This document shows, piece by piece, positions 7,010-8,785 of a stretch of DNA of 64,000 nt (the first letter of the stretch is position 1; every line of letters begins with the position of its first letter). Origin of the DNA: Thermococcus radiotolerans. Its GTDB lineage: Archaea; Methanobacteriota_B; Thermococci; Thermococcales; Thermococcaceae. A model generated the notes under the pieces. It saw nothing but the letters and a program-made list of their open reading frames with translations. It searched no databases and was not told where the DNA came from. The stretch covers positions 186,001 to 250,000 of the forward strand of contig NZ_CP015106.1 of the NCBI RefSeq assembly GCF_002214565.1. Reading direction: 5' to 3'. The position numbers and the translations under genes were made by a program.

Positions 7010-7409
7010 TTATACTCCAAACTTCTCTGCCTATTCCTCATACTTCTTGATTTCTTTACGTGTAAGGGGGCTTTTTATCTTCTTGAAAGCAGCTTCAAAG
7101 TCCTTCATCTCGAGAGGTCTGATTTTGAGCTCCAATTTCTTTAGATCAATTTCAGAGAGGACGTTAAGATCGGTGAGTTCCGGGTTTTTCTCCTCAAGCA
7201 TGTGATGAATAGCCAAATTGCAGAGGTTGGCTATCTCCCTGCCCGAGTACAGTCGTCTGACGCTCTCCTCGGCTATTGTATCGATGTCAAGTTTGCTTGT
7301 GTCTAACTCCCTATGTAGGCATTTTCGGGCTTCTTCCGGTTTCGGGGCTTCGTGGTTATATCCTCCAAGTATTATACCCGTTAGGTATAAAATGAAAACA
7401 CTCCCATCG
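7010..7409 (-). pseudogene. Decayed C-terminal fragment of an AAA-family ATPase
   Basis: On the minus strand the frame reads ILGGYNHEAPKPEEARK, then a helical stretch ending VRRLYSGREIANLCNLAIH, and on to IKSPLTRKEIKKYEE. It meets an in-frame TAG at 7031-7033 and continues AEKFGV to a second stop at 7010-7012. This pattern (YSGREI followed by a helical lid and a KYEEFAE-FG ending) resembles the C-terminal lid of archaeal AAA ATPases. No Walker motifs or start codon remain upstream; recognisable coding sequence fades near 7409, exactly where the tandem promoter repeats begin. I infer a truncated remnant with at least one nonsense mutation. Confidence 0.6.
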
Positions 7410-7511
7410 CTTGCCGATCACCAACCGGCCAGTCTTTATAAACCCTTGTCGATTGCTATTCGGCAAGTGTTTATAAAGTCTTGCCGAACGACGTTCCGCA
7501 AGGTATATAAA
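7410..7511 (+). repeat. Three tandem ~35-bp operator/TATA units upstream of the AAA_14 ATPase
   Basis: Units start at 7410, 7445 and 7480. Each begins CTTGYCGA, continues in units 2 and 3 to a mirrored TCSGCAAG or TCCGCAAG arm, and ends with a TATA-like box: TTTATAAA at 7435-7442 and 7470-7477, TATATAAA at 7504-7511. Unit 3 is an almost perfect palindrome (CTTGC...AACG-A-CGTT...GCAAG). Only the last box is correctly placed (about 25 bases) for a leaderless transcript starting at or near the ATG at 7534. The arrangement suggests a repressor or cooperative regulator binding beside each TATA copy. Confidence 0.7.
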
Positions 7512-7533
7512 GGAAGGCGCCCATCAAAATACC

Positions 7534-8742
7534 ATGTTCGATCTTGAGGAGTATAACCTGTGGTGGGTTCACGAGGAAGACCCGGACGTCGAGGAGTGGA
7601 AGGACTTAGAGTACCGCTACGTCCCCTCGTGGATAAACGAGCTCTCGCTCGAACCCTTCTCGGTGAACTTCCTCGTCGGACCGAGGAGGGTCGGCAAAAC
7701 CCTCGGAGTGAAGCTCCTCATAAACGAACTCCTCAGGGGAAGAGAGAACCCCTACGAGATCTTCTACTACGACTGCACGATGCTCGACGACCAGAACGAC
7801 CTCTCCGCTGTTCTCAAGACTTATCTGAAGCTCAGGGAGACCAAAGGTATAAAAAGCTCCCTCATCTTCCTCGACGAAGTTACCTCCGTCAGGAACTGGT
7901 GGAAGGTCATCATCGACCTCATAAACCGGAAGAGGCTTAAGAACGACGTGGTCACGGTGATGGGCTCCGTCTCGGTCAACCTCGACAGGGCCGTTGGATA
8001 CTTCTCCGGGAGGAAGGGCAACGGGAAAGTTCTTGAAATAATGCCCCTCGGCTTCAGGGACTACTACCGCCTTCTGACAGGCGTTGAGGACTACTTCGAC
8101 GGAAAGGGCCAGGACGCATTCGAAAGCTACCTCAAAACCGGCGGCTACGCGGCTTACCTGAACAGAAGGATACGGAAGAGCGACATAGTGGGCGCACTGA
8201 AGGCCGACCTCAGGAGCCTAGAGAGAGAAAAGGATCCGGAAATCGCGAGGGAGATATTGGGTGCGATCATATCCAAGGCACCCAGTCCCCTCTCGTACCG
8301 CGAGCTCGGTGAGGAGGCCGGCGTCAACAGGGACACCGTGAGGAGCTACGTATCGGTTCTCTCCGAGCTTAAGGTACTCCTGGAAATACCCTTCTCCCGG
8401 TGGGGGAAGGAAGTCGTTCCAAAGAAAAACAGGAAGTTCGCCATCAGAGACCCGTTGATGGCGAGGGCGTTCGCCGAGTGGAGTCAGGTTAAGATTGAGG
8501 AGTCGGTTCTCTATGAGTGGGCCGTCCAGGAGCACCTTTACCGGAAGTTCAGGAAGGTGTATTACTTCCGGAGTGACAACTACGAGATAGATGCCGTTGT
8601 GCCGGGCATGAGAGTTGAGGTGAAGTCCGGAAAAGGTGGAGGCAGATATCCGAGAGATGTCATCCTGCTCGGTGGAAATGAAGTCCCACGGTTCCTCTAT
8701 GGAATAGAGTACAGCCACGTCGTTGAGTACGGTGAGATCTAA
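7534..8742 (+). CDS. AAA_14/DUF4143-type archaeal ATPase
   Basis: A 402-residue P-loop ATPase of the large, functionally obscure family abundant in Thermococcales. Walker A (GPRRVGKT) is at residues 49-56 and Walker B (SSLIFLDEV) near 108-116. A sensor-like MGSVS strand follows, then a winged-helix region (PLSYRELGEEAGVNRDTVRSYV) at about residues 250-275. The C-terminal domain has the nuclease-like core (YYFRSDNYEIDAVVPGMRVEVKSGK) of DUF4143. No ribosome binding site precedes the ATG, consistent with leaderless transcription from the box at 7504. Related genes are often mobile or lineage-specific; the adjacent AAA remnant fits such turnover. Cellular role unknown. Confidence 0.85.
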   Translation: MFDLEEYNLWWVHEEDPDVEEWKDLEYRYVPSWINELSLEPFSVNFLVGPRRVGKTLGVKLLINELLRGRENPYEIFYYDCTMLDDQNDLSAVLKTYLKLRETKGIKSSLIFLDEVTSVRNWWKVIIDLINRKRLKNDVVTVMGSVSVNLDRAVGYFSGRKGNGKVLEIMPLGFRDYYRLLTGVEDYFDGKGQDAFESYLKTGGYAAYLNRRIRKSDIVGALKADLRSLEREKDPEIAREILGAIISKAPSPLSYRELGEEAGVNRDTVRSYVSVLSELKVLLEIPFSRWGKEVVPKKNRKFAIRDPLMARAFAEWSQVKIEESVLYEWAVQEHLYRKFRKVYYFRSDNYEIDAVVPGMRVEVKSGKGGGRYPRDVILLGGNEVPRFLYGIEYSHVVEYGEI

Positions 8743-8785
8743 TCACGGAGTTTTCTCTTTGCCCAACTCAATCCCGACCAATCGC

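Follow-up and report, generated by a model that had tools for sequence, protein, structure and literature searches.

Predicted autoregulatory operator arrays with a fixed promoter geometry and clade-specific sequences precede AAA_14-DUF4143 ATPase genes in Thermococcaceae

Upstream of a single ATPase gene in a Thermococcus chromosome of 1.87 Mb there are three tandem 35 bp units (7410-7444, 7445-7479 and 7480-7514 of the window, the 64,000-nucleotide stretch of Thermococcus radiotolerans DNA that was analysed), and these raise the question of which protein recognizes them and with what consequence for the gene. The units start exactly 35 bp apart, and each consists of an imperfect palindrome with 10 bp arms and a 3 bp centre followed by a TATA-like box, the arm matches rising toward the gene (Table 1). 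Pairwise identities are 25/35 (units 1 and 2), 20/35 (units 2 and 3) and 18/35 (units 1 and 3), and summed over all three units the best identity is 63, a value that none of 400 dinucleotide shuffles of positions 7330-7533 matches (maximum 48, mean 39.8); the arrangement reported in a preliminary description of this DNA is thus borne out, as is its proposal that the leaderless start at 7534 is fitted by the last TATA-like box only. This third box is 1 bp nearer to its operator than boxes 1 and 2 are to theirs. A repeat search returns the array region as a single inverted repeat (7410-7452 / 7460-7502), and Tandem Repeats Finder calls no tandem repeat in the array region, presumably owing to the divergence of the copies. 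Transcription start-site maps have been published for Thermococcus (PMC5316973, PMC4247193). On the minus strand nearby, positions 7372-7390 (TTATACC-CGTTA-GGTATAA) probably form an orphan operator left by a divergent ATPase gene, intact at locus L160 but lost from this genome, and positions 7031-7345 hold what is left of a Vps4/CDC48-like AAA ATPase, its C-terminal part without the N-terminal one (Vps4_C, E=3.7e-5).

Table 1. Features of the array and its ATPase gene; positions are those of the window, and operator and TATA centres are relative to the ATG.
Feature	Position	Strand	Basis or remark
Operator 1: CTTGCCGATC-ACC-AACCGGCCAG, arms 7/10, centre -112.5	7410..7432	+	kept in orthologs
TATA-like box 1: TTTATAAA, itself palindromic	7435..7442	.	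conserved in orthologs
Operator 2: CTTGTCGATT-GCT-ATTCGGCAAG, arms 8/10, centre -77.5	7445..7467	+	
TATA-like box 2: TTTATAAA, halfway between operators 2 and 3	7470..7477	.	ranks with the least variable alignment columns in units 2-3
Operator 3: CTTGCCGAAC-GAC-GTTCCGCAAG, arms 9/10, centre -42.5, the family-wide conserved position	7480..7502	+	
Core-promoter TATA box: TATATAAA, centre -26, suits a leaderless mRNA	7504..7511	+	
Segment missing from six orphan-array genomes (TATA box 3 and gene)	7504..8773	.	
AAA_14-DUF4143 ATPase gene, 402 aa, PDC-S01 type	7534..8742	+	Pfam, PADLOC
Predicted winged-helix DNA-binding segment, codons 245-282, recognition helix NRDTVRSYVSVL	8266..8379	+	HTH_11 E=0.005 (below cut-off), clade alignment
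PD-(D/E)xK-like motif E328...EID353...VE362VK364, codons 328-364	8515..8625	+	motif level

All three units are kept at the same spacing in orthologs with 81-96% protein identity (L001/L006, L002/L012 and L007-L011), and the array is shortened at 72% identity (L003/L004). L009 departs from the other orthologs 130 bp upstream of the gene, where unit 2 lies in reverse orientation between two TTTATAAA boxes: the segment between TATA-like boxes 1 and 2 aligns with those of L001, L007 and L011 with scores of 17 to 19 when inverted, versus -1 to -3 in direct orientation. The array therefore rearranges with its architecture preserved. Unequal recombination, offered earlier as an origin, may explain the copy number and leaves the conservation unexplained.

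Such an operator-TATA array had been regarded as unusual, and it proves instead to be a rule of the family. The sample comprised 137 AAA_14-DUF4143 genes of Thermococcaceae, in 13 clusters at 50% protein identity, and each promoter was scored by the best 20 bp internal match, direct or inverted, at separations of 25-45 bp in the 120 bp upstream of the start codon, taken as the nearest ATG at least 36 residues ahead of Walker A (a rule that misplaces some clade C and D starts); 26 intergenic promoters of the window and shuffled sequences served as controls. The mean repeat score is 15.9/20 in family promoters, compared to 12.0 in the controls (n=26) and 12.1 in the shuffles, and a repeat of at least 14/20 is present in 127 of the 137 family promoters (93%), in one of the 26 controls and in 12 of 137 shuffles. 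The Mann-Whitney p value (9e-16) overstates the significance because the genes are related, and the cluster means are a fairer measure; all 13 of them exceed the control mean. The repeat lags peak at 33-35 bp. Conservation of the inverted repeats at homologous promoters, whose absence the preliminary description would have taken as a sign that the array is incidental, is seen at nearly all of them at the level of architecture. The interpretation given in that description was partly right, the pattern being far more general than it claimed.

Across ten operator types of unrelated sequence, chosen by eye from the promoter listings, operator centres are 32-35 bp apart with a TATA box ~17 bp from each. 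With the start as zero, the common geometry is a TATA box at ~-26 and operator centres at ~-42.5 and ~-8.5, which clades C and D also match when the first in-frame ATG is taken as the start. Promoters of the focal clade and of cluster 1 combine the -42.5 site with extra upstream copies and lack the -8.5 site; special to the focal clade are the third unit upstream and the missing -8.5 site. The upstream units of cluster 1 have no TATA box, and the idea that the additional boxes titrate TBP is unsupported and was set aside. The half-sites are wholly different in clades A-D (TTGCCGAAC in the focal clade, then TTTGCACT, TTGAGAACT and TGTAAAGT), and others include TTGTGTATTA and TTGGTAC. Other AAA_14/DUF4143 genes are therefore preceded by the same architecture and not by the identical unit, the latter expectation being false as worded. 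Within one promoter the half-site copies agree, and between clades they change in concert. The rule is also followed by L150-L152, from another archaeal family of the same class, with TACTCATT-N3-AATGAGTA placed around TTTATATATA; L152 is among the ten operator types. Of the bacterial plasmid homologs, some have repeated half-sites at their promoters (L214), and a Methanomethylovorans gene has a 32 bp repeat, whereas nothing clear is seen at others; these cases are too few for a general statement. Three ATPase genes of the focal genome with weaker AAA_14 matches (L064, L065 and L067) have palindromes that overlap or abut their starts (for example GAATTATTCTCATGAGAATAATTC), which suggests that the rule extends to further archaeal ATPase families.

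The ATPase matches the PADLOC phage-defence candidate PDC-S01 (AAA_14 plus DUF4143; E=4.7e-27), as do all 33 family representatives, and its Walker A and Walker B motifs are intact, with G49, G54, K55, D114 and E115 invariant in 33 sequences. PDC-S01, in which an ATPase is fused to PD-(D/E)xK, is described as very common, with enrichment in Archaea, and most such candidates await validation (PMC12988326). Searches of the open-access literature found no description of a PDC-S01 ligand, mechanism, operator or regulation, and no mention of DUF4143 with Thermococcus or with an operator. The focal protein holds E328, E351, D353, E362 and K364 of a PD-(D/E)xK domain, an assignment at motif level only, and the focal cluster (cluster 0; EVK in 50 of 51) and clusters 8 and 9 retain these residues; in the remaining clusters the ExK residues (focal residues 362-364) are replaced by QV[T/S/N/C]. 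Arrays are found with both the intact and the degenerate ExK, so nuclease activity is unnecessary for them. Residues 245-280 have weak matches to HTH_11, HTH_24, HTH_20 and IclR profiles, with HTH_11 under Pfam's cut-off, and in the clade alignment the recognition helices differ by clade (NRDTVRSY, SPHTARDY, SYKVVQDY and STPTVREY). The AlphaFold prediction, made with five input sequences, is of poor quality (mean pLDDT 41.9), and its helix pattern is of low confidence. No relatives of the ATPase were found in viral contigs, or in plasmids when these were searched with the focal protein as query. Plasmid pTS1 of Treponema saccharophilum carries a DUF4143-family ATPase gene (L217) between genes for type I restriction HsdR and a DNA methyltransferase, a position consistent with a role in defence.

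The concerted change of the operator copies clade by clade calls for a factor acting in trans whose recognition is clade-specific, and the ATPase is favoured as this factor because it alone is obliged to travel with the gene. Our best reading of the sequences is that the ATPase, with its putative winged-helix segment, would bind the array, and the differently spelled operators of its relatives suggest that each protein may recognize and control its own gene. We propose, with a probability of roughly 0.7, that the array is autoregulatory, and we infer that the product of the gene binds it, that the promoter is thereby repressed and not activated, and that the upstream copies act cooperatively. 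The ATPase would contact the palindromes through the winged-helix segment, probably as dimers with one dimer per 23 bp palindrome. Protein bound at operator 3, which adjoins the BRE/TATA region, would block TBP and TFB and keep expression of the gene low, and operators 1 and 2, one 35 bp step apart, would promote cooperative binding and steeper repression. In most of the related genes a second dimer would sit at ~-8.5 over the transcription start, with operators 34 bp apart flanking the TATA box, and the focal clade appears to have swapped this site for upstream copies. The upstream TATA-like boxes probably belong to the duplicated unit or the bound structure rather than marking extra starts. 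Speculatively, the AAA+ cycle might alter binding, giving for instance derepression upon infection. Against the proposal, besides the HTH match under the cut-off and the poor structural model, operator similarity is only weakly related to recognition-helix similarity once overall relatedness is accounted for (partial rank correlation 0.126; Mantel p=0.002), and this correlation is no stronger than that for the remaining protein; with such weak support from the partial Mantel test, the recognition helix was rejected as the sole determinant of the operator.

It is also conceivable, if unlikely, that the ATPase binds its own array and activates the promoter, or toggles between activation and repression according to its ATP state. 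The operators of the focal clade all lie upstream of TATA, as in archaeal activators, and the AAA+ domain could act as a switch; however, the ~-8.5 operator of most clades lies over the transcription start, in an occluding position, which argues for repression.

Autoregulation must also be reconciled with arrays that persist in genomes lacking the gene, which it predicts only as recent loss. A search for the focal operator across 61 Thermococcus genomes found arrays in genomes without a focal-clade gene. In a survey of the sequence preceding the neighbouring PAPS-reductase-domain gene (the PAPS locus), six genomes bear the ATPase gene, eight have an intact array only (L159-L164, L170 and L198), one has a remnant, and the other examined genomes are empty. 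Six of the orphan arrays have the identical junction CCGCAAG[R] / CCGACCAATCG (where R is A or G), the break falling exactly past operator 3, and in G043 an in-register fusion joins the array to the PAPS gene's TATA box. On the PAPS-gene tree, genomes with orphan arrays are interspersed among gene-bearing ones, indicating repeated loss or exchange between species. At a second locus with clade C orphan arrays (L165-L168), three of the four end at the operator edge and directly abut the end of a conserved neighbouring gene; the junctions show CTCA microhomology with the gene's 3' end, and an ordinary deletion route is therefore available there. Genomes G007 and G020 have gene and array together elsewhere and an empty PAPS locus, so the pair moves together. 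The orphan arrays are likely to be relics of gene loss by recurrent deletion, and a site-specific process such as excision is possible. Array distances are well below those at four-fold sites of the PAPS gene (mean 0.148 versus 0.416). In the single sister pair in which both members are orphans the values are 0.091 and 0.131, without a clear excess of conservation, and we make no claim of selection on orphan arrays.

The same junctions could be taken to mean that the array doubles as a cleavage or recombination mark for its own ATPase, the nuclease acting beside the last operator with repeated excision or insertion of the gene there and the array retained for a gene-independent role. This is distinctly unlikely. 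The single junction common to six orphans, the interleaving of genomes on the flanking-gene tree and the operator-edge joints of the second clade would all fit, as would the D-ExK residues of the focal protein, but ExK is lost (QV[TS]) in most clusters that keep arrays, the clade C junctions have the microhomology described above, G007 and G020 carry both gene and array at another locus, and one deletion could have spread between species by homologous exchange.

Control of the ATPase by a separate host transcription factor bound to the array is highly unlikely. In its favour, archaeal regulators of other families use palindromes beside TATA; against this, with up to three mismatches the focal operator occurs in the whole genome solely at its own promoter, as holds for another family gene of this genome, whose operator is likewise confined to its own promoter. 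At least ten unrelated operator sequences are each private to one clade of one family, and the operators are single-locus in the genome, so that a dedicated unlinked regulator would be needed for each. That the array is a chance tandem duplication of promoter sequence without a regulatory function is hardly credible, since, although the copies are diverged and unit 2 is inverted in one ortholog, copy number and spacing are conserved across species and the architecture is conserved despite different sequences.

If the array is indeed bound by its own ATPase, self-specific autoregulation would be a family rule for a defence-candidate ATPase, a known kind of array in a new setting. PDC-S01 proteins rank among the commonest archaeal defence candidates, and the predicted DNA target of each member could be read from its own promoter, making binding, autoregulation and specificity testable. 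Several paralogs with separate operators are present in one genome (which has six DUF4143 genes here) and would provide a natural panel of insulated regulators for use in thermophile genetics and for working out a recognition code, and orphan arrays would mark sites of past ATPase gene loss.

In most Thermococcaceae clusters the ATPases differ from the PDC-S01 type in having lost the ExK residues. The solved archaeal ATPase 2FNA, a conserved hypothetical protein, is a distant homolog (E=1.4e-6, profile positions 88-284); the match spans the ATPase and the following region, and the record name gives no function or DNA ligand. A type II toxin-antitoxin module was considered and rejected: the neighbours of the gene encode an amidohydrolase and a PAPS-reductase-domain protein, there is no adjacent small partner gene, and neither an antitoxin nor a C-protein gene is seen adjoining the ATPase. 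Type II toxin-antitoxin operons and the C proteins of restriction-modification systems control a hazardous gene through multiple palindromic operators in its own promoter and cooperative autorepression. The focal array has in common with them the palindromic multi-copy operators in its own promoter, and differs in that the AAA+ effector would itself be the regulator, encoded as a single-gene unit behind an archaeal TATA promoter.
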